64,000 nucleotides of DNA from Acidobacteriota bacterium. Lineage in GTDB: Bacteria; Acidobacteriota; Blastocatellia; RBC074. The notes beneath the pieces are model-generated. The model saw only the letters and a list, made by a program, of their open reading frames with translations, did not search any database and was not told the origin of the DNA. The first letter of the stretch is position 1, and the number at the start of each line of letters is the position of its first letter. Shown here in pieces: positions 49,765 through 61,992 of this stretch. Both the position numbers and the translations under genes were made by a program. The stretch lies in NCBI GenBank assembly GCA_016196035.1, contig JACPYM010000010.1:1-64000 (forward strand), given 5' to 3'.

Positions 49765-50901
49765 TTAGTGTTTGCCGCGCGCCACGTCAATCACACGCTC
49801 ATACAGCGTGACGTATTGCGGGATGACGCGCTCGGTATTGAATTGTTCGACCGCGTGCGCGCGCCCGCGTTGGCCGAAACTGCGTTGCTTGGTTTCATCC
49901 GTCAGAATCTCGACCGCGCGCTCGGCCAACGTTTGCACATCGCCGACTTCGATCAGATAGCCGCTTTGCCCATCCAGCACGACTTCGGGCAAACCGCCGA
50001 CGCGCGAGGCGATGACCGGCACTTCGCAGGCCAACGCTTCCAGCGCCGACAGGCCGAACGATTCGGTCTCGCTCGGCAAGAGCAGCAAGTCCGCGACCGA
50101 CAGGTAATCGGCGATGTTGGGCACCTGGCCGACAAACAATACGCTGTCGGTCAGTCCGTACCGTTGCGCCAAGGCTTCTGCCTCCGCCCGCGTAGGGCCA
50201 TCGCCGCACATCACCAAACGGGCAGAAAGCCGTGGGTGCAAGCGCGCAAAGGCATGAATGCAATCCGTGATGCGTTTGACCGGGCGGAAGTTCGAGACAT
50301 GCAAGATCAGCTTTTCATCCCGCGGGGCCAGTTGGCGGCGCAAGCTTTCGTCCGGCCGCCGCTGATAATCGGCGGCGTTGATAAAGTTGGGGATGACTTC
50401 GGTCGCGGTGTAGCCAAACGTGCGCGCCGTTTCATCCGCCAGAAAGCCTGAGACGGCGGTGACCGCGTCCGATTGGGCAATCGAAAAGCGCGTGATCGGC
50501 AGAAAACTTTTGCGCGCGCCAACCAGCGTGATGTCCGTCCCGTGCAGCGTCGTCACAAAGGGCAAATAGCGTTGCGCCCGATACATCTCGCGCGCCAGAT
50601 AAGCCGCCGTCGCGTGCGGAATCGCGTAATGCATGTGCAAAACGTCTAGCTTTTGTTCTTCCGCGACTTCGAGAATTTTTGAGGCCAGTGCCAGATCGTA
50701 AGGCGGGAACTCAAAGAGCGGATAGTCGAACAAGTCCACCTGATGAAACTGCACGCGGTCATCCAATGGACAGACCCGCGTCGGCAGCGCATAGCTGATG
50801 AAATGCACCGTGTGGCCGCGCGCCGCTAATTCGTGCCCCAGTTCAGAGCCGACGATGCCGCTGCCGCCGTAGGTGGGAAAGACTGTAATGCCGATGTTCA
50901 T
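49765..50901 (-). CDS. bshA: N-acetyl-alpha-D-glucosaminyl L-malate synthase
   Basis: First enzyme of bacillithiol synthesis, joining GlcNAc to L-malate. This 378-residue GT4 glycosyltransferase has the BshA-type N-terminus ([22 protein letters not shown]), [18 protein letters not shown] and the nucleotide-binding segment [22 protein letters not shown]. The bshB1 gene lies upstream on the same strand, which confirms the pathway. The third gene, bshC, is not in the window. The upstream gap is filled with CAGTGGT heptamers. Confidence 0.93.
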
Positions 50902-50980: not shown

Positions 50981-51730
50981 TCAAGAATACAAGTTCATTT
51001 TCCGCGTCAGCAGCGCGACCGGATCGTCCACGTTCAATGCCTCGCGCACGAAAAAAGCTTCGCCATAAGCCGCGCCGATTAACGCGCCAAAGTAGCGGTC
51101 GCGCGCGTCCATTTCGCGCAGGAATTGATCGCTGCTGACGCGCGATTGCGGTTCCTTGCTCTTGGCGTTGAAAAATTGCGAGGTGTGGGCGCGGATGGCT
51201 TCCCACTTGCGCGTGAAGGTGGCGCTGATGTCTACGATAAAGGTCGGCGCGACGGTGCGGGGGAGAAGGAAATAGGCGACACAGTTCGGTCGCCAGCGTT
51301 CGAGCTTTGGTTTGGCGTCGTATTTCGCCAAGCCCGCCAGATGGGCGGCTTCGCGCACCAGTTGCGCGGTGTGGGCATGGTCAGGGTGCGGGTCATCCCA
51401 GTATTGCGTCAACACCAGACGCGGACGCCAGCGGCGCAACACGCGCACCAGTTTCGTGCGTGACTCTTCGTTGACCCAAATGTGCGCATCGCCCAAATCC
51501 AGGTTTTCGCGCATGGAAAGCCCCAGCAATTGTGCCGCGCGGGCTGCTTCAAAAGCGCGGATTTCCGGGGTGCCGCGTGTGCTCGCTTCGCCGCGCGTCA
51601 GATCGAGGACGCCGGTTTTATAACCCTGCTGCGCCAGTTTGATGAGCGTTCCTCCGGCGGACAATTCCACATCGTCGGGATGTGCCGCGATGGCTAGGAC
51701 ATCGAGTTGTGTCTGGCCGCTAACATTCAT
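50981..51730 (-). CDS. bshB1: Bacillithiol biosynthesis deacetylase
   Basis: A zinc-dependent LmbE/PIG-L family deacetylase that removes acetate from GlcNAc-malate. The 249-residue protein has [15 protein letters not shown] (metal-binding AHPDD), [12 protein letters not shown] typical of BshB1, and [10 protein letters not shown] with the second metal-ligand motif. It is followed by bshA, giving two of the three bacillithiol genes. It is divergent from the copper locus. Confidence 0.93.
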
Positions 51731-51828: not shown

Positions 51829-52212
51829 GTGAACATCATCGGGCGCTTCACAATTCTACTTTTGGCGGTGGCTTTATTCAGCCACCTGAGCGTGGCGCTC
51901 TTGCCGTATGGCGGGGCAGCCGACGCCTGTGAGTCGGATTGTTGTGCGAGCGCGCACCAGATGGCGCAGATGGCCAATACGCCAGCCATCGCCGCCGGGT
52001 TATGCTGCGTGCTTGATTGTCCGCCGGATGCAGAAGTTTTGCCACTGGTTACGCTCAGCAATCCAGTTCCACAGCCGCTGTCAGGCTTGCTCAGCGCAGC
52101 GCCGCCAGCGCAGTTTTCAATTTCACCATACACAAGAACTCCCCGCACGCCACCGCGCTATTTACGGGATGCCTCCAGCCGCTACCTGAAAACCGGCGCA
52201 CTCCTGATTTAA
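51829..52212 (+). CDS. Small exported Cys/His/Met-containing protein heading the copper locus
   Basis: A 127-residue protein with a GTG start, a hydrophobic leader (FTILLLAVALFSHLSVALL) and then ACESDCCASAHQMAQMA and GLCCVLDCPPD, which offer several Cys, His and Met ligands. No family is recognised. Its place at the head of a CusA-type efflux locus suggests a periplasmic metal-binding or sensing role. Transcript start appears leaderless. Confidence 0.55.
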   Translation: MNIIGRFTILLLAVALFSHLSVALLPYGGAADACESDCCASAHQMAQMANTPAIAAGLCCVLDCPPDAEVLPLVTLSNPVPQPLSGLLSAAPPAQFSISPYTRTPRTPPRYLRDASSRYLKTGALLI

Positions 52213-52393
52213 GGGGCGGAGTGTGTCCACTTTCCACTAACGCAACCACCAATCAGTTTTTCAGAATGGTTCGCTGAAGTTTGTTTGGCAGGCGCTGATG
52301 GCCGGTTGACAGAGTGTTTTGAGCTTTGCTCAGCACCTGCCATTGGGCCATGCCATTGGACATAGTTGCCAGCTATTCTGATGAGGAAAATCC

Positions 52394-52810
52394 ATGCAGA
52401 CAAAATCCGTCACGCTACTTTTTCTGAGTGTGCTGGCCTTCGCCGCCGCCTGTCGTACCGGTTCACCAACGGGCGAACAAACCATCAAATCCACCAAAGT
52501 GGGCGAGCTGACCGTTACCCTCGCCAACTCGACCGGCCAGGTTACTCATGGCGAGAATGATCTGACACTTTCGTTTACCGATGCCTCCGGCAAATTGGTA
52601 GACGTCGGCGCGGCCTCGCTCAGCTTCCACATGGCCGGGATGGGTTCGATGGCTGAGATGAATGACCGCGCCACGCTCACCACCACCGACACGCCCGGCA
52701 AATACCGCGCGCATATCAAAGTCGAAATGGGGGGCACCTGGGAAGCCCAAATCGCTTATCAAGGCCCGCAAGGCACCGGCAAGGCGAGCATGAACGTGCA
52801 GACGAAATGA
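52394..52810 (+). CDS. YtkA/FixH-like lipoprotein
   Basis: A 138-residue protein with a lipobox (VLAFAAAC, Cys at residue 20), followed by one immunoglobulin-like beta-sandwich (KVGELTVTLANSTGQVTHGENDLTLSF). HMAGMGSMAEMND in the middle is a Met/His cluster suited to Cu(I), and the domain matches YtkA-like proteins often found beside CusA/CzcA pumps. It lies directly upstream of cusA. Confidence 0.75.
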   Translation: MQTKSVTLLFLSVLAFAAACRTGSPTGEQTIKSTKVGELTVTLANSTGQVTHGENDLTLSFTDASGKLVDVGAASLSFHMAGMGSMAEMNDRATLTTTDTPGKYRAHIKVEMGGTWEAQIAYQGPQGTGKASMNVQTK

Positions 52811-52816
52811 GACCAT

Positions 52817-52960
52817 CGCAGTCAGTGGTTAGTAGTCAGTAGTCGGTAGAAGAGGTCTCAACGGACATCGGTTACCGGCTACTGACTACCGGCTACTGAC
52901 TACTGACTACTGACTACTGACTACTGACTACTGACTACTGACTACTGACTACTGACTACC
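52817..52960. repeat. CTGACTA heptamer array ending at the cusA start codon
   Basis: After an AGTAGTCAGTAGTC block, about 10 uninterrupted copies of CTGACTA fill 52885-52958, and the ATG of cusA follows at 52961. No Shine-Dalgarno sequence remains. The two blocks are in opposite orientation and could pair in the mRNA. Confidence 0.85.
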
Positions 52961-55900
52961 ATGATTAACCGCATCATTGAATTTTCGCTGAAGAATCGCT
53001 TCATCGTCGTGGCGGCGTATGTGCTGCTGGCGGGCTGGGGGTATTGGGCGCTGCTGCACACGCCGATTGATGCGATTCCCGATTTGTCGGACAACCAGGT
53101 CATCGTCTTCACCGACTGGGTAGGCCGTTCGCCGCAAGAGGTCGAAGACCAGGTGACTTATCCGCTCTCGACGGCATTGCAGGGATTGCCGGGCGTGCGC
53201 GCGGTGCGCGGGCAATCGGCGTTCGGGTTCTCGATGATCAATGTGATCTTTGAGGATGCGATTGATTTGTACTGGGCGCGCACGCGCGTGCTGGAACGTC
53301 TGAACCTGATCACCGCGCAATTGCCGACAGGGGCCGCGCCGACGCTGGGGCCGGATGCTTCGGGCGTCGGGCAGATTTTCTGGTACACGTTGGAAGGAGC
53401 GGGGCAAAGCCTGCGCGATTTGCGTTCATTGCAGGATTGGTTCGTGCGCTACCAACTCAACTCGGTGCCCGGCGTGGCCGAGGTCGCTTCGGTCGGCGGG
53501 CACGTCCAGCAATACCAAATTGACGTAGACCCGAACCGGCTGCGCGCCTATGCGATTCCGTTCTCGATGGTGGCCGAAGCCGTGCGGCGCAGCAACTCCA
53601 ATGTCGGCGGCAACGTGATCGAACAGAACGGCCAGTGGTCGGTCGTGCGCGGCGTCGGGCTGATCGAATCCACTGGCGACATTGAGAACATCGTGATCGG
53701 TTCATCTTCCGGTGAAAGAGGCGGCACGCCCGTGTACGTGCGCAACGTCGCGGCGGTCAAACTCGGCAATGCTTTCCGCGTCGGCGTGCTCGACCGCGAT
53801 GGCAAAGAGGCGGTGGGCGGCGTGGTCATTGCGCGCTACGGCGTCAATGCGCTCGAAGTCATCAACGGCGTCAAAGAAAAGCTCAAAGCCATCGAAGCCG
53901 GACTGCCGCACGGCGTGCGCATCGTGCCGTTTTATGACCGGACGGAATTGATCCTGCGCGCGACCGAAACGCTCAAACGCGCGCTGATCGAAGAGTTATT
54001 GCTGGTCACGCTGGCGCACATCATTTTCCTTTTCCATTTTCGCTCCATCCTGATCGTCACGATCCCGTTGCCACTGGCCGTGCTGGTGTCTTTCCTGTTT
54101 ATGCGTTACCTCGGCATCAGTTCGAATCTGATGTCGCTGGCCGGGATTGCGATTGCGATTGGCGTGCTGGTTGATGCGGGCATCGTCGTGACCGAAAACG
54201 CCTTTCGCCAAATCGAAAAGAAAGGCGTCGCGCCCACAGACCGGCGGCGCGTTTGGGTGACGGTGCTCGAAGCGACCCAACTGGTGGGCCGCCCGATCTT
54301 CTTTTCGATGACGATCATCATCCTGGCGTTCATCCCTGTCTTTGCGCTGACGGGCCGCGAGGGGAAGCTGTTTCATCCGCTGGCCTTCACCAAAACCTTT
54401 GCGATGGCGGGCGCGACGCTCATCGCGATCACGCTGGTGCCCGTGCTTTGCACCTTGTTGCTGGGCGGAAAGTTTCACGCCGAAGACGACAATCTGGTGA
54501 TGCGCGCTTTGCACAAGCTCTATCGCCCGGCGCTGCGGTTCGCGCTGGCGCATCGCGCGCTGACGCTTTTGCTGGCGGCGGTGCTGTTCGCGGGCGCGCT
54601 TTATCGGGCCACACACATCGGCAGCGAATTCATGCCGGAACTTAACGAAGGCGAAGCGATGTACATGCCGATCACCGATCCGGCGATTTCAATAGACGAG
54701 GCGTTGCGCGTGATGCAGATGCAGGATCGCACGCTCAAATCCTTTCCCGAAGTCGCCTGGGTAGTCGGCAAGGCGGGCCGCGCCGAAACCTCGACCGATC
54801 CCGCGCCGGTGAACATGAACGAAACCCTCGTCCATCTGAAACCGCCCGCCGAATGGCGGCCCGGCATGACGCGCGAAAAACTGATCGCCGAGATGGACGC
54901 GAAACTCACCATGCCCGGCGTCCAAAACATCTGGACGCAGCCCATCATCAACCGCATCGAGATGCTGACCACCGGCATCCGCACCGAGGTCGGCGTCAAA
55001 ATTTACGGCAGCAATTTGCAGGAGTTGGAACGGCTTTCAAACGAAGCCGCCGCCGCGCTACGCACCGTGCCGGGCGCGGGCAACGTCTCGCCCGAACCGC
55101 TGACCGGCGCGCCTTACGTTGACATCAAACTCGACCGGCAGGCGGCGGCGCGTTACGGCATCGGCGTGCAGGCGATTCAGGAGGTCATTGATATGGGCAT
55201 CGGCGAAAGCAATTTGACCGTGACCATCGAGGGGCGCAAACGGTTCCCGGTGCGCGTGCGTTACGCGCCGCAATACCGCACGACGCCTGAATCGCTGGGG
55301 CAATTGCTGGTGTCCGCGCCGAACGGGATGCAGATTCCGCTCGCGCAATTGGCGACGATTCGTTCGACGCAGGGCGCTTCGATGATCGCCAGCGAGAACG
55401 GGCTGTTGCGCGGGACGGTGCTGCTCAACGTGCGCGGGCGCGACGTGGGCAGCTTTGTCGAAGAGGCCAAACCGCTGCTCATCAACCGCGTGCCGTTGCC
55501 GCCGGGTTATTACTTTGAATGGAGCGGGCAATATGAAAACCAGCAACGCGCCCGCGCCCGGTTGCAACTGGTCTTGCCGCTCGTGCTGGTCGTGATTTTT
55601 GTGCTGCTCTATTTGACCTACAACTCATTTATTGAAGCCGCGCACGTCTTGCTGGCCGTGCCGTTTGCGCTGACGGGTGGCGTCTATTTGGTCGCGGCGC
55701 TCGGCTACAACTTTTCGGTGGCGGTCTGGGTCGGCTTCATCGCGCTGTTCGGCACGGCGGTGCAAACGGGCATGGTGATGGTGATTTATTTGAATGAAGC
55801 GGTCGAACGCAAACGGGCCGAACTGGGCGGCCTGACGCACGACACCTTGCAACAGGCGGTGATGGAAGGCGCGGTCTTGCGCCTGCGGCCAAAGGTCATG

Positions 55901-56158
55901 ACCGTCTCGACCGTCGTCGCGGGGTTGTTGCCGATTATGTGGAGTCACAGCGCGGGCGCGGAGGTGATGAAACCGCTCGCCGCGCCGGTATTGGGCGGCA
56001 TGGTTTCGTCGTTGTTGCACGTGCTGATCGTCACGCCGGTGATCTTTTCGTGGCTGCACGAGCGCAAGCTCAAAAGGGAGGCAGTCAAGGCGACGGTCAA
56101 TGAACAACTATCCGACACTGGCAATGAGCCGGTGGCAATTGATGATGGTCAGGGATGA
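52961..56158 (+). CDS. cusA: Copper/silver efflux RND transporter CusA
   Basis: The 1065-residue inner-membrane proton-driven pump of a CusCBA tripartite system. It has two six-helix bundles, [15 protein letters not shown] with the proton-relay Asp in TM4, and NEGEAMYMP in the porter domain. Met569 (MYMP), Met619 (NMNE) and Met668 (IEML) align with E. coli CusA Met573, Met623 and Met672 with the same 50- and 49-residue spacing; these methionines carry Cu(I)/Ag(I), so a copper/silver rather than zinc/cobalt substrate is well supported. Its start abuts a heptamer array. Confidence 0.92.
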
Positions 56159-56248
56159 AGCAGTGGCGAAGCCTCAGACGTGGAGACCCGCTCCCGGCTG
56201 GACGGCTTCAAAGACTAACAACCTACTCAACTTTAAGGAGATATAAAG

Positions 56249-56626
56249 ATGAAGAACAAAATTGCATTTCCGAGCCTGATCGCAGCGCTCTTGCTAATGA
56301 CCTTGGCAGTCTGGGCGCACGACCCGGTGAAACTTTCCGGCTACCTGGTAGACACGGCATGCGCGGCAGATCACGTCAAAGACAGTGCGGAAGCCGCGAC
56401 TAAGTTTGCCGCTGAGCATACCAAGTCCTGCGGACTGATGGAGGAGTGCGTCAAGAGCGGCTACGGCGTCTTCAGCGACGGGAAGTGGTATCCCTTCGAT
56501 GACAAAGGAAACCAATTGGCTAAAGCGATCCTCGACAAAACCCAGCGGACGGATCACATCAAGATCACCGTCGAAGGCATGAAGCACGACGGAAAAATTC
56601 TCGTGCAGAAGATGACTGCGGAGTGA
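56249..56626 (+). CDS. Small secreted protein of the copper locus, unknown function
   Basis: A 125-residue protein with a strong AAGGAGATATAAAG leader and a signal peptide (PSLIAALLLMTLAVWA). The mature part has three Cys (DTACAADH, KSCGLMEEC), His and a GYGVFSDGKWYPFDDKGN motif, followed by a beta-rich C-terminus. I do not recognise a named family. The position between cusA and the cupredoxin gene suggests periplasmic metal handling. Confidence 0.65.
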   Translation: MKNKIAFPSLIAALLLMTLAVWAHDPVKLSGYLVDTACAADHVKDSAEAATKFAAEHTKSCGLMEECVKSGYGVFSDGKWYPFDDKGNQLAKAILDKTQRTDHIKITVEGMKHDGKILVQKMTAE

Positions 56627-56726
56627 ATAGCTCGTCCAGGCAAGGCGGAAGGGGTTGGTTAAGCACACTAGCCCTTTCGCGCTGCGCTTATTCCCAGAGT
56701 CAGAATTCAAACTTAGGAGAAAAACC

Positions 56727-57146
56727 ATGAAGCACAAAACAACCAAAGTACTGGGCGGGGCGCTGCTGCTTGCCGCCCTCACGCTCTCAACCGCCGCCTT
56801 CGGCGAATGGCAGGCGAGCGGCAAGGCAAACCCATACGCCAACCGCACGCCAGCGCCGCCCGCACAAACAACGCCGCAAGACGGCGTGCAGACTGCGACC
56901 ATCGAAGTCACGGGCAAGGGCTTTGAGCCAGCCAGCCTAAAGCTGCAAGTGGGCACACCGGCCAAAGTGACGTTCACCAGAAAGACGGACGAGACCTGCG
57001 CCAAAGAGGTCGTCATCAAGGATTACAACCTCAAGCGCGCGCTGCCGCTCGATGAAGCGGTGACGCTCGAATTCACGCCGCGCAAAGGCGAATTCAGCTT
57101 TGCCTGCGGGATGAACATGCTCAAGGGCAAACTGATCGTGGAATGA
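56727..57146 (+). CDS. Periplasmic cupredoxin-like protein
   Basis: The start at 56727 follows TTAGGAGA. The 139-residue protein has a signal peptide (GGALLLAALTLSTAAFG) and one cupredoxin-like domain (about 55-139). Candidate ligands are the Cys in ETCAKEVVI and Cys/Met in FACGMNML. The domain is clearly paralogous to the C-terminus of the CusB protein (RALPL, VTxEFTP and CGMxML shared in order). It may ferry copper to the pump. Confidence 0.8.
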   Translation: MKHKTTKVLGGALLLAALTLSTAAFGEWQASGKANPYANRTPAPPAQTTPQDGVQTATIEVTGKGFEPASLKLQVGTPAKVTFTRKTDETCAKEVVIKDYNLKRALPLDEAVTLEFTPRKGEFSFACGMNMLKGKLIVE

Positions 57147-57227
57147 ACCGCGTGGGCTGCGACATCTCTCAACGACCGGCATTGACCGGCTATGACCGAA
57201 TTTCAACAACCAACCAAAGGGGAAGTT

Positions 57228-57710
57228 ATGAACACAAAGATCGAAGCAATTTCAATGAGCCTGCTGCTCGCATTGTCACTGGGCGTTTTCAGCCTCGTGG
57301 CGGCGGCGCAGGACAAGCCGGGGCAGATGGATAAGATGGACGGGATGAAGATGGGCCAGATGAAGATGAAGCCGAAGATGGAGATGGTGATCGGCAAAAA
57401 GGGCATTCTCAACTTCACTTCGTCATTCCACGCGGGCGACACCGTGCTGAAGTCAGGCACGTATCAGGTGCAGCACGTCGAGGAAGGCAGCGATCATCAC
57501 ATCATCGTGTTGAAAGAAGTGCCGTCAGGCCAGGGCTTCCGCGGCGGCAATACGATGGCGGGCAAAGAGGCCGCCCGGCTGCACTGCAAATTCGAGCCGT
57601 CGGAAAAGAAGTGGAGCAACACGACGGTAATGCTGCGCACCAACGACAAAGGCGAAAAGGAAATCGCCGAGATTCACGTCGCGGGCGAAAAGTTCGTGCA
57701 TAAGCTGTAA
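57228..57710 (+). CDS. Secreted Met-rich protein of the copper locus
   Basis: A 160-residue protein with a signal peptide (LLLALSLGVFSLVAAAQ) and then QMDKMDGMKMGQMKMKPKME, nine Met in 30 residues, which suits Cu(I) or Ag(I) binding. A beta-rich domain follows (DTVLKSGTYQVQHVEEGSDHHII). The Met-rich segment may be a chaperone arm feeding the pump. The GGGGAAGTT site precedes the ATG at 57228. No established family is recognised. Confidence 0.7.
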   Translation: MNTKIEAISMSLLLALSLGVFSLVAAAQDKPGQMDKMDGMKMGQMKMKPKMEMVIGKKGILNFTSSFHAGDTVLKSGTYQVQHVEEGSDHHIIVLKEVPSGQGFRGGNTMAGKEAARLHCKFEPSEKKWSNTTVMLRTNDKGEKEIAEIHVAGEKFVHKL

Positions 57711-57820
57711 GCGCTGCGGCCTGAAATCACCAACCGCGCGGCTGCCCTGGCACTGAGTCCGAGCAGCCGCGCGGGAATAGCAGGCTGCGGCCTGCGCTCA
57801 GTTTGCCAATAGGAGTAGTT

Positions 57821-58972
57821 ATGAAAAGGCAATTCTGTGGATTTTGTCGAAGCACCTTTTTGTCTGCGCTGACTCTGATTGCCTTGCTGTCCAGTGCGTC
57901 TCAGAGCGCATTGGCACAGCAGCAATTGAAGGCAACCGCCTTCGCCCCGCCAGCCGCGCAAAAAGACAATGCCAGCCGCATCACCATCAGCACCGAGTTG
58001 GTTTCGTTCACCGTGACCGTCACAGACAATCAGGGGTGTCACGTAACCGGACTCGACCGCCGGGCCTTTGCGGTCTACGAAGATAACGTGCGGCAGGAGC
58101 TTAACTTTTTTAGCGACCGTGACGCGCCTGCTTCGGTCGGCGTGGTCTTCGATGTCTCCGGCTCGATGCGCGGGGAGAAGGTCATTTTCGCCAGAGAAGC
58201 ACTCGCGCGCTTTATTCAAACCAGCCATCCCGAAGACGAATACTCGCTCATCAGCTTCAATGATTCTGCCAGGTTGCTGTTCGACCGCACGCGTGACGGC
58301 GAGGCGCTGCTCGCGCAGTTCGGCAGCGTTCATCCACAGGGCAACACGGCGCTCTACGACGGCGTTGCCCTCGGCCTCGAGGCGCTCGCGCACGGTCGTT
58401 ATGCGAAGCGGGCGCTGATCGTCATCAGCGACGGCGAAGACAATCGCTCGCGCTCCACTTTCAATCAGGTTAGGCGGAAGTTACAGGAATCGGGCGTAAC
58501 GATCTACACCATCCTGATTGGCTCGCCGCCGCCCCACAGCAATGGCGGAATCGTAATGGGTCAACTGGCCGCAGCTTCCGGCGGGAAATCTTTCTCTCCG
58601 GGCGATGGTGAAGCGCTGAGCGAAGCCTTCGAGCAGATCGCGCTGGAACTGCGCCATCAATACTCCCTCGGCTACACGCCGACGAACGTCACTGACGACG
58701 GCCAATGGCGTCGCCTCAAAATCATCGTTACGCCGCCCGCTGAATCGCCGCGCTTGATTGTGCGCAGCCGTAAAGGTTACTACGCAGCCGCCAGTCTGGC
58801 TGAGCGCGCTGAATCGGCCAGTGGCGCTGACATTGCTGCTCAGCCAAGTGCCGCAAGTGCCGGTAGAGGGTCAGAGTGTTGTCAGTGTCCTTGTGAATGT
58901 TGCCCCGCCGCTATTGCACGCGATCAGCAATCTCAGGTGCTACGCTCCGAAGCCGAAGGGTGTCAGTGTTGA
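57821..58972 (+). CDS. Secreted VWFA-domain protein with a Cys-rich tail
   Basis: The start at 57821 follows AGGAG. The 383-residue product has a signal peptide, a VWFA-related N-domain (TVTVTDNQG, RAFAVYEDN) and a VWA fold with the MIDAS motif DVSGSM, LISFND and TALYDG, ending near RKGYYAAA (about residue 329). The last 50 residues contain eight Cys in CC.C.C.CC and C.C patterns. That tail has poor third-position G/C, whereas the +2 frame over the same bases looks more gene-like and ends exactly at the next start, so a frameshift is possible. Acidobacteria encode many VWFA proteins of unknown role. Confidence 0.75.
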   Translation: MKRQFCGFCRSTFLSALTLIALLSSASQSALAQQQLKATAFAPPAAQKDNASRITISTELVSFTVTVTDNQGCHVTGLDRRAFAVYEDNVRQELNFFSDRDAPASVGVVFDVSGSMRGEKVIFAREALARFIQTSHPEDEYSLISFNDSARLLFDRTRDGEALLAQFGSVHPQGNTALYDGVALGLEALAHGRYAKRALIVISDGEDNRSRSTFNQVRRKLQESGVTIYTILIGSPPPHSNGGIVMGQLAAASGGKSFSPGDGEALSEAFEQIALELRHQYSLGYTPTNVTDDGQWRRLKIIVTPPAESPRLIVRSRKGYYAAASLAERAESASGADIAAQPSAASAGRGSECCQCPCECCPAAIARDQQSQVLRSEAEGCQC

Positions 58973-59011
58973 GCCGGTGACGATTGCCGAAGGAGAGAAG
59001 GAGAGTTTTTG

Positions 59012-60391
59012 ATGAAGCGAAAAAACTGTTTTAGATTGTCCGCAGCTTTGCTCTGGCTGAATTGTGCCGCCGCGCTTGCCCTGGGGCAAGTTGCGAGTGT
59101 GCCAGTGGAATCGGCGCCCGCGCCCGCCAGCGCTGCGCCGATCTCTGTCTACGCGCGGCTGATTGATCCGGCGAAGGGCATGACAGCGGATGATTTGGTG
59201 CGCTATGCCTTGGAACACAACGGCGAGTTGCTGGCCGCGCGCAGGATGATTGCCGAGGCGCAGGGGCGTTTGCGGCAAGCCGGTTTGAAAGCCAATCCGA
59301 TGCTGGAAACCAGCGGCAAACAGGCCGTGACCACGCCGGACAACAACCAGATGTTCAGCGTCGAACTGCCGCTGGAATTGGGCGGACGGCGGCAGGCGCG
59401 CGTGCTTGTCGGTCAGCGCGAAGTCGAAATGCGGCAGGCCGAAGTCCGCGATTTCGAACGCAAGCTGGCCGCCGAAGTGCGGATGAAATACGCCGACGCC
59501 ATTGCCACAGCGCGCAAGCTGAAATTGACCGAAGAGTTATTGGAATCCACCCGCAACTCGCATCAACTCGTGCAGGCGCGCGTCGAACACGGCAAGAGCG
59601 CCGTGTTGGAAAAGAACGAAGTTTGGGTCGAACTCAATCGCGCCGACGCGGCTCGCCTCAATGTCGAGAGCAAAGCCGAAATCGCTTTGCTGGAATTGAA
59701 AAAAGTCATCGGCGCGCCGCCGGAAGAGCAGTTGGAACTGCGCGGCGAATTCGCTGCTGTTCAGCCTGCGCCCGCTGCTGCCGAACTGTTAAAACAGGCA
59801 TTGGCGATGCGGCCTGATTTGATGACCTTGCGCGCGGCGGAACGTCTGGCCGAGGCGCAGATTGAGCAGGTGCGGCGCGAAGGGCGCATTGAGGCCAGCG
59901 TATTTGCGGGCTATGAGCGGATGAGCAACGGCTACGATGTGCTGGGCTTTAACGAAGCGGGCCGCTTGACGCCGGTCAATGCGGTCTTTCATTACGCGAC
60001 CTTTGGCGTGCGCTTTACGCTGCCGACCAGAAACAAGAATCAGGGGATGATCGAAGCGGCAGTCGCGGCGGCGGAGGCGGCACGGCACCGGCGCGAATTC
60101 GCCGAACTGGTCGTGCGTAATGAAGTGGCTTCCGTCACGGCCCGGCTCGAAAGGGCACGTGCGGCGCTGGCTGTCTATCGCGAGCGCGTGCTGGCCCCGG
60201 CGCAACAGAATTTGGACGTCGTGCAAAAGACTTACACGCTCGGCTACAAAACGGCGCTGGATTACCTGACCGAGCAGCGCCGCTACATCGAGGTTGAGAA
60301 CGATTACACCGAAGCGCTTAAGGAATACTTGGAAGCCTTGGCCGAACTGGATCGCGTCGCGGGCGTGACGCTACGAGAGGAGAAGCAATGA
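59012..60391 (+). CDS. cusC: Outer-membrane efflux protein of the TolC/CusC family
   Basis: A 459-residue protein with a signal peptide (LSAALLWLNCAAALALGQ) and two outer-membrane efflux repeats of long helices, for example AEAQGRLRQAGLKANPMLE, and the SVELPLELGGRRQARV region that marks the CzcC/CusC group. It forms the trimeric exit channel. AAGGAGAGAAGGAGAG lies upstream of the ATG at 59012, and the 3' end overlaps cusB by four bases (ATGA). Confidence 0.88.
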   Translation: MKRKNCFRLSAALLWLNCAAALALGQVASVPVESAPAPASAAPISVYARLIDPAKGMTADDLVRYALEHNGELLAARRMIAEAQGRLRQAGLKANPMLETSGKQAVTTPDNNQMFSVELPLELGGRRQARVLVGQREVEMRQAEVRDFERKLAAEVRMKYADAIATARKLKLTEELLESTRNSHQLVQARVEHGKSAVLEKNEVWVELNRADAARLNVESKAEIALLELKKVIGAPPEEQLELRGEFAAVQPAPAAAELLKQALAMRPDLMTLRAAERLAEAQIEQVRREGRIEASVFAGYERMSNGYDVLGFNEAGRLTPVNAVFHYATFGVRFTLPTRNKNQGMIEAAVAAAEAARHRREFAELVVRNEVASVTARLERARAALAVYRERVLAPAQQNLDVVQKTYTLGYKTALDYLTEQRRYIEVENDYTEALKEYLEALAELDRVAGVTLREEKQ

Positions 60392-61992
60392 AACAGCAAC
60401 GTTGGTTGTGGATTGTCGTAACGGTTTTTGTATTGGCGGCTGCGGCTGGCGGATTCTGGTTCTGGCGCGGCAAGAGTTCAAGCAGTGTGGCCGGGCGTCC
60501 GGTGCCGACGCCGGATTTTGACGTGGCCGCTACGCCCGCGCATGAAACCTCGGTGGCGCGCCCGGATGATATGTTGATTAGCTTGCCGCCGGAAAAACTA
60601 GCCAACGCCAGCTTCAAAATCGAAGCCGTGCAACCCGCAATGGCTGCGCCGACTAGCGGCGGCTTGCGCGCGGTGGGCACGGTGCAATCCAACCCGTACA
60701 AAGAAACGCCCGTGATGCCGATTGCGGGTGGCATCGTGCGCGCCGTCAACGTGACGCTGGGCGAACAAGTCACGCCAGGCCAAACGCTGGCGACCCTGTT
60801 CAGCACGGAACTCTCCGAAGCGCAGACGGCTTATCTGAAAGTCCAGGCTGAGATCGAAAAGCATCACAAACATTTTCGCCGTGCCGCCGATCTGGTCGAA
60901 CTGGGCGCGATCAGCCGTGAGGAATACGAGGACACGCAGTCGCAATACAAGACCGAGCAGGCCGAATTGGGCGCGGCACGGCAACGGTTGGTGCTCTATG
61001 GGCTGACGGCCAAGCAGATTGATGCGTTGCAATCCGGCGCGGAAGCGAGCGCGTTGATTACGATCACCGCGCCCGTTTCCGGCCTCGTGCTCAACCGTCT
61101 CGTCAACCCCGGTGAAGTGGTCAACATGGGCAAAGAACTGTTCCGCTTGGCCGACCTTTCGACGGTCTGGGTGATCGGCCAGGTTTACGAACAGGATTTG
61201 GCTCGTGTGCGTGTCGGGACGGCGGCGGCAATCACGGCGGCGGCCTATCCGCAACGCCGCTTTACCGGGCGTGTCTCATATATTGACCCGCGCATCGAAC
61301 CGCAAACCCGCACGGCGCAGGTGCGCATCGAGGTCGGCAACGCCGGGCAGCCGCTCAAATTGGGCATGTTCGTTGATGTAAATTTTGGCGGCGACGTGCC
61401 AACCAGGACAGAGGCAAACGCGGCGGTGAGCGTTCCGCAATCCGCTGTGCAATTGATCGGCACGAAGCCGGTGGTGTTCGTTGCCACGGCAGAGGCGGGC
61501 GGCTTTGCCCAACGTGCGGTTCAGGCTGGCCCGGCGGTGAATGGCGTCGTGCCGGTCTTCGATGGTCTTAGTCTCAACGACCGCGTGGTGACGGAAGGCA
61601 GTTTTTTGCTGCGCGCGGAAAGCTTGAAACTCGATCCGGCCCAGACGCGCGAGGCTGCGCCGGAACAGCGTGCGCGGGCTGACCAGCACAAGGCAGCGCC
61701 AGCAGACAAGGCGGCCACGGCGGCGGAAATCCAAACGGCCACGGTCGTTTTGAATGAGAAAGGTTACCAGCCGGGCACCCTGCGGTTACGTCCCGGCATC
61801 CGAGCGCGCGTCACGTTCCTGCGCAAAGTCGAGGCGACCTGCGGCACCGAAATCGTGCTGGCGGATTACGGCATCAAACGCGCACTGCCTTTGGGCCAGC
61901 CGGTGACCATCGAATTCACGCCGGCCAAACCCGGCGAATTCAAATTTTCGTGCGGGATGGATATGTTGCAGGGCAGCATTGTGGTGAAGTGA
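60388..61992 (+). CDS. cusB: RND periplasmic adaptor CusB with a C-terminal cupredoxin domain
   Basis: A 534-residue protein. It has an N-terminal membrane anchor (WIVVTVFVLAAAAGGFWFW), a barrel-sandwich/lipoyl half (PIAGGIVRAVNVTLGEQVTPGQTLATL), a helical hairpin (about 140-190), a beta-barrel domain and a linker rich in Ala/Lys. Residues about 449-534 form a cupredoxin-like domain with Cys in EATCGTEIV and CGMDML, paralogous to the protein at 56727. E. coli CusB instead uses N-terminal methionines. The fusion may load copper directly into the pump. It overlaps cusC by ATGA. Confidence 0.88.
   Translation: MKQQRWLWIVVTVFVLAAAAGGFWFWRGKSSSSVAGRPVPTPDFDVAATPAHETSVARPDDMLISLPPEKLANASFKIEAVQPAMAAPTSGGLRAVGTVQSNPYKETPVMPIAGGIVRAVNVTLGEQVTPGQTLATLFSTELSEAQTAYLKVQAEIEKHHKHFRRAADLVELGAISREEYEDTQSQYKTEQAELGAARQRLVLYGLTAKQIDALQSGAEASALITITAPVSGLVLNRLVNPGEVVNMGKELFRLADLSTVWVIGQVYEQDLARVRVGTAAAITAAAYPQRRFTGRVSYIDPRIEPQTRTAQVRIEVGNAGQPLKLGMFVDVNFGGDVPTRTEANAAVSVPQSAVQLIGTKPVVFVATAEAGGFAQRAVQAGPAVNGVVPVFDGLSLNDRVVTEGSFLLRAESLKLDPAQTREAAPEQRARADQHKAAPADKAATAAEIQTATVVLNEKGYQPGTLRLRPGIRARVTFLRKVEATCGTEIVLADYGIKRALPLGQPVTIEFTPAKPGEFKFSCGMDMLQGSIVVK

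Follow-up and report, generated by a model that had tools for sequence, protein, structure and literature searches.

We analysed a 64,000-nucleotide stretch of contig JACPYM010000010.1 from an Acidobacteriota bacterium (assembly GCA_016196035.1, genome size 9.6 Mb), hereafter the window. A copper/silver resistance-nodulation-division (RND) efflux cluster of co-directional genes occupies positions 51829-61992. Between 52394 and 61992 the + strand encodes, in order, a YtkA-like lipoprotein, the pump CusA, a small Cys/His protein, a stand-alone cupredoxin, a Met-rich protein, a VWA protein, the outer-membrane factor CusC and the periplasmic adaptor CusB, and the end of cusC overlaps the start of cusB by four bases (Table 1). 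The subject of this work is the C terminus of CusB, which carries a cupredoxin-like domain of its own. A preliminary description of this DNA had noticed this domain, the pump and a set of accessory genes. The whole set is present: the Met-rich protein, two small Cys-containing secreted proteins, the Met/His lipoprotein (Pfam YtkA/FixH) and the VWA protein.

The CusB adaptor and its C-terminal domain

The adaptor belongs to the CusB class by its barrel-sandwich core (PF16576), its fold match to ZneB and CusB, and its operon with cusA and cusC. Pfam places a Cupredoxin_1 match at residues 441-533 (E 2.5e-14). When the full protein was compared with solved structures by phmmer, the body matched ZneB/CusB and the tail matched CupA and the metal-binding domain (MBD) of the CopA ATPase, with E values of 8e-15 and 2e-12. 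Among solved structures, both window cupredoxins are most closely related to pneumococcal CupA (4f2e/2mry) and to the corresponding CopA domain (4f2f). An AlphaFold2 (AF2) model of CusB was built from a 23-row alignment and has a mean predicted local distance difference test score (pLDDT) of 87.6; a single-sequence model (pLDDT 38) was discarded as useless. The tail is mostly above 90 and the linker at residues 432-444 is of low confidence. Residues 445-534 of the model match 4f2f (Z 16.2) and 4f2e (Z 16.1) by VIA-align, with a root-mean-square deviation of 1.4 Å over 89 residues.

The predicted Cu(I) ligands of the tail are C485, C522, M524 and M526. Their spacing is identical to that of C74, C111, M113 and M115 in CupA, where C74/C111 hold one Cu(I) and C74/M113/M115 a second (PMC5646241). 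The four residues are kept in all 11 rows of the tail alignment (A2) and in 14 of the 15 fused tails found with hidden Markov models (HMMs). The two outcomes that the preliminary description regarded as adverse, a non-metal-binding fold of the tail and loss of its ligands in homologues, did not occur; phmmer and the AF2 fold both lead to CupA/CopA-MBD. Judged by sequence and model, the tail is a CupA-type Cu(I) cupredoxin fold with the four-residue site of CupA, and Cu(I) binding is predicted. In the model the domain is tethered to the membrane-proximal end of the adaptor by a linker that is probably flexible.

The region of the E. coli-type N-terminal Met site is absent from the window protein when it is aligned with E. 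coli CusB. HMBD (PF19335) gave no match in this CusB or in any of 22 related adaptors scanned; it is present in the adaptor of another locus, L056 (L numbers denote individual loci). In agreement with the initial view that the system differs from that of CusF, the locus has no CusF gene, and the Pfam search found CusF_Ec (PF11604) neither in CusB nor elsewhere in the locus. A classical CusF elsewhere in the genome was considered as a missing partner and dropped: the two CusF_Ec matches outside the locus are a SCO1-like protein and a lone secreted protein.

The CusA pump

CusA is 44% identical to E. coli CusA (reference sequence from NC_000913) in a pairwise alignment. The periplasmic triad M573/M623/M672 of the E. 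coli protein aligns with M569/M619/M668, which bears out the copper-path methionines at E. coli spacing reported earlier. M391, M486 and M1009 of E. coli CusA are also kept, and M403 is replaced by Leu. The triad is present in all acidobacterial and gemmatimonad loci that have both a CusB-CupA fusion and a full-length CusA. On the strength of the triad the window protein is assigned as a Cu(I)/Ag(I)-type pump, with transport itself a prediction.

Table 1. Features of the efflux locus and their positions in the window
Feature	Position	Strand	Evidence or remark
Small secreted Cys-rich protein (CxxxCC...CCxxxC), without named family	51829..52212	+	Homologues at same place in relatives
YtkA/FixH-family lipoprotein, HMxxMxxMxxM motif	52394..52810	+	PF13115 E 6.4e-11
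CusA, predicted Cu(I)/Ag(I)-type RND pump	52961..56158	+	TIGR00914, 1119.6 bits; E. coli CusA alignment
CusA triad codon M569	54665-54667	+
CusA triad codon M619	54815-54817	+
CusA triad codon M668	54962-54964	+
Small secreted Cys/His protein	56249..56626	+	No Pfam or NCBIfam match
Stand-alone secreted CupA-like cupredoxin	56727..57146	+	PF13473 (Cupredoxin_1) E 1.9e-16; signal peptide
Secreted Met-rich protein (MDKMDGMKMGQMKMKPKMEM)	57228..57710	+	Direct sequence reading
Secreted VWA-domain protein, Cys-rich C terminus	57803..58972	+	TIGR03436 E 2e-56; likely ATG 57821
CusC-type outer-membrane factor	59009..60391	+	PF02321 (OEP)
CusB-type periplasmic adaptor	60388..61992	+	PF16576 (HlyD_D23) E 8e-60; E. 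coli CusB alignment; AF2 model
CupA-like cupredoxin domain, CusB C terminus	61708..61989	+	PF13473; 4f2e/4f2f fold match

The stand-alone cupredoxin

A longer open reading frame starts at 56655, and the ATG at 56727 is the likely start of the stand-alone protein. Its sole phmmer matches among solved structures, up to E 1, are S. pneumoniae CupA (E 5e-17) and the CopA metal-binding domain (E 1.5e-14). The predicted ligands are C91, C127, M129 and M131. Over the aligned stretch the protein is 49% identical to the CusB tail; both are Cupredoxin_1 domains with a common Cys...CGMxM, so the initial match between the end of CusB and this secreted protein holds.

We placed both domains in a tree of 96 domains and 99 columns, in which most deep forks are unresolved. 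The sister of the window tail is the tail of L063 (support 99/81), and the sister of the stand-alone domain is the stand-alone domain of L069 (100/98). These different sisters rule out a local duplication as the origin of the pair, and the two domains, which had been called paralogous, are so only in the broad sense. A further branch (100/98) splits RND-linked from ATPase-linked CupA domains, with few exceptions.

In L069 the stand-alone domain adjoins a CusB without a tail, and one gene beyond it lies a VWA protein 65% identical to that of the window. Given this pairing, the two genes look like one module placed in the cusA-cusC junction of the window; the junction is gapless in L063 and L064. 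The window is the sole locus seen in which a stand-alone CupA-like domain accompanies a fused CusB tail. Within its order the CusB fusion occurs in 5 of 11 genomes, and the stand-alone domain together with the fusion in this genome only, although some of the assemblies are incomplete and absence from them is weak evidence. As the fused relatives have no stand-alone copy in the operon, the donor to the tail would be optional or something else.

The YtkA companion protein

Of all the companions of the CusB tail, the YtkA protein is the most constant. Its gene lies upstream of cusA in the closest relatives, except in L048, and in other loci the domain is fused to the C terminus of CusA or the N terminus of CusB. 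In about a dozen loci the link to CusA is an extra hydrophobic helix, whose best 19-residue windows score 1.7 to 2.8 on the Kyte-Doolittle scale; these YtkA domains retain the Met motif. This additional, thirteenth CusA helix would make the YtkA domain periplasmic. The CusA-YtkA proteins of 1190-1225 residues (L044-L046, L049-L051, L074, L076, L077, L079, L080 and L084) thus have an apparent tether of a Met-rich periplasmic domain to the pump. The loci of Armatimonadota and UBP9-type metagenome-assembled genomes (MAGs) have YtkA at the CusB N terminus; the adaptors of L075, L082 and L083 (749-790 residues) carry YtkA at the N terminus and a CupA-like domain at the C terminus, and the pumps beside them lack the CusA Met triad. 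YtkA domains of B. subtilis take part in copper hand-over (PMC13344008).

Distribution of CupA-like domains

CupA-like domains were found in 45 of 297 Acidobacteriota genomes at E 1e-6. The loci that were read show four kinds of context: the domain is fused to CusB; it stands alone between cusA and cusC; it is fused behind YtkA-like domains between cusB and cusA; or it occurs as free or membrane-anchored copies elsewhere, several of them adjoining copper ATPases. The unfused CusBs of L068 and L071 terminate about where the tail linker of the fused ones starts, and in these operons a gene of its own, between cusA and cusC, encodes the CupA-like domain. A domain that is fused in some loci and separately encoded in these is, by the classic gene-fusion argument, a functional partner of this pump.

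We also scanned 84,980 species genomes with the pattern F[ATS]CGM[ND]M and took the best 80 of 463 matches. Because the pattern itself fixes these residues, the scan is unfit for judging ligand conservation, for which the HMM-found set is suited. Among these 80 matches, CusB-CupA fusions come from Acidobacteriota, one Gemmatimonadota MAG, Armatimonadota and UBP9-type MAGs, and ATPase-linked copies from Bacillota, Actinomycetota, Chloroflexota and others. The nearest named relatives of the window tail in the same set are Acidobacteriota MAGs.

A second operon type (L057/L117, L119-L121, L124, L125, L127, L134 and L138) has a YtkA-CupA fusion, usually with a stand-alone CupA copy, between cusB and the pump. 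The triad positions of its pump read N-Y-H, not M-M-M, so the metal or the chemistry may differ. One locus, L078, is titled 'Cyanobacteria bacterium', which looks wrong: it shares the locus of G167, a genome of the window's phylum.

The host genome has only three CupA-type domains, the two in the window and one on contig C117. The latter lies at the end of a YHYH/YtkA-like protein (L006, 1495-3222, - strand), an architecture that recurs across the family and occurs elsewhere in several genomes of the order. Unlike the C117 match, the other PF13473 matches of the host, on C29, C86 and C59, are not of the CGMxM type, and the two weakest, on C5 and C57, fall short of the CupA-type search. The genome has about 20 further adaptor-like matches. 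Three frames on other contigs exceed the TIGR01511 copper-ATPase cut-off, and none carries a CupA-type domain.

Other proteins and neighbouring genes

Homologues of the small Cys-rich protein at the start of the cluster, with the six Cys kept, lie upstream of ytkA-cusA in L042/L064 and L063 (E 1e-10 to 1e-13). The small Cys/His protein has homologues in 10 of the 11 genomes of the order and is family-wide, not pump-specific; a scan of a viral collection with it gave no match. The Met-rich protein is rare, with one paralogue in the host genome and one weaker match in genome G275. At its C terminus the VWA protein has a Cys-rich tail (ECCQCPCECC..., window positions 58860-58972), and its L069 homologue has a shorter Cys-containing tail. 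In a survey of the kind proposed in the preliminary description the fusion recurs and YtkA is the conserved neighbour; the small Cys/His proteins and the VWA protein have no consistent link to the pump.

A scan for promoters found no sigma-70-like site, a negative that says little in this phylum. On the - strand, directly beside the copper cluster and divergent from it, are bshA (TIGR03999, 506 bits; 49765-50901) and bshB1 (TIGR04001, 268 bits; 50981-51730). Their product bacillithiol is a thiol and could bind Cu(I).

Proposed mechanism and alternatives

From sequence comparison and the AF2 model, we consider it likely that the locus encodes a tripartite RND exporter for Cu(I)/Ag(I) in which a Cu(I) chaperone domain is built into the adaptor. 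The tethered tail would pick up periplasmic Cu(I) at its Cys/Cys site. By way of the shared Cys and the Met/Met site the ion would reach the Met triad in the periplasmic cleft of CusA, which would expel it through CusC. In E. coli, CusB takes Cu(I) from CusF via an N-terminal Met site. The tail would do the job of both CusF and this N terminus, and that of the CusF-like C-terminal domain of SilB. The YtkA lipoprotein is a probable upstream copper carrier, and the stand-alone CupA-like protein may be an optional extra donor or buffer, a separate module of this lineage.

Several points weigh against an adaptor with its own chaperone. The CupA/CopA domain works on the cytosolic side of the membrane; here it would be periplasmic, where its two Cys may oxidise. 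One fused tail, in L051, reads CGEQM and has lost a Met. The pumps beside some fusions, in Armatimonadota and UBP9 MAGs, lack the Met triad, which indicates that the CupA-type domain is not tied to one pump type. In addition, four unfused adaptors among the 22 scanned also lack HMBD, so its absence is not specific to fusions.

A wider reading, to which we give somewhat less than an even chance, is a CusF-independent, pump-integrated hand-over chain leading from YtkA, free or tethered to CusA, to the CusB-tethered CupA-type domain, with the free CupA-like protein as a third carrier. On this reading the CupA fold, so far described as a cytosolic chaperone of streptococci, would serve Cu(I) delivery widely among bacteria and have an RND/periplasmic branch of its own.

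The preliminary description favoured a periplasmic relay to the fused acceptor. A dedicated version now seems somewhat unlikely; in it the secreted stand-alone protein would take up Cu(I) and deliver it to the CusB tail, in the way that CupA supplies the N-terminal domain of CopA. Both domains are of the CupA/CopA-MBD type with the same ligands, they lie in one co-directional cluster, and the tail is on a Cu/Ag-pump adaptor. The pneumococcal CupA and CopA, each with a cupredoxin domain, are taken to interact (review PMC7558416), and the L057-type locus, in which a YtkA-CupA fusion adjoins a stand-alone copy, is a CusB-free analogue. However, no other CusB-CupA locus was seen with a stand-alone copy in its operon, the tree sisters differ, and the L069 copy adjoins a tail-less adaptor. 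Such a relay is possible in this genome, but it is not conserved.

It is quite unlikely that the tail, instead of delivering metal, acts as a metal sensor that gates the assembly or activity of the pump. The N-terminal metal-binding domain of SilB has been proposed as a sensor (PMC11970713), CusB is reported to activate CusA (PMC4446572), and the low-confidence, probably flexible tether in our model is consistent with such a role. However, the CupA-type two-site cluster with its lower-affinity Met site suits hand-over (PMC5646241), and the existence of the domain as a separate protein in sister operons suggests a carrier more than a switch built into the adaptor. Finally, CupA speeds Cu(II) reduction in vitro via its two Cys (PMC5646241), but a domain that mainly reduces Cu(II) to Cu(I) or buffers copper at the pump is very unlikely, as the locus shows no evident source of electrons in the periplasm and a single fused domain per adaptor is a small buffer.

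Relationship to known systems

The locus shares with E. coli CusCFBA the pump, adaptor, channel and CusA Met triad. However, it has no CusF and no CusB N-terminal Met site, and has instead the tail domain, the YtkA lipoprotein and extra small proteins. S. pneumoniae CupA and CopA-MBD are of the same cupredoxin subfamily, with the same four ligands and spacing, and likewise occur as one stand-alone and one exporter-fused copy. Their partner is a P-type ATPase and they act on the cytosolic side, whereas the partner in the window is an RND adaptor and the domains are predicted to be periplasmic and have their own tree branch. B. subtilis CtaK and the C-terminal domain of YcnJ also place a YtkA domain beside or fused with a copper transporter. 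However, the B. subtilis YtkA proteins serve copper loading of an oxidase, while that of the window accompanies an efflux pump.

The nearest precedent for the window CusB is SilB of Cupriavidus metallidurans CH34, an adaptor of the heavy-metal efflux RND (HME-RND) class that ends in a metallochaperone domain for Cu(I)/Ag(I) (PMC4446572; PDB 5a4g, 2l55). The SilB tail is a CusF-type oligonucleotide/oligosaccharide-binding (OB) barrel, and SilB has an N-terminal metal site as well (PMC11970713); in contrast, the window adaptor ends in a CupA-type cupredoxin, and no metal site was seen at its N terminus. The parts were already known: CupA/CopA-MBD, HME-RND pumps and, from SilB, a chaperone domain at the adaptor C terminus (PMC4446572). 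We found no description of a CupA-type domain on an RND adaptor in the literature searched, which comprised open-licence papers only. It appears that a known copper hand-over module, that of pneumococcus, has here been connected to another type of exporter.

If the proposed role of the tail is right, two unrelated folds, the CusF OB barrel and the CupA cupredoxin, have been joined to the same end of one adaptor family. This would show by comparison that HME-RND pumps can receive copper through the C-terminal side of the adaptor. The CupA-type domain spans many phyla, with ATPase-linked and RND-linked branches, and its fused and unfused versions form a natural set for testing the need for chaperone tethering.

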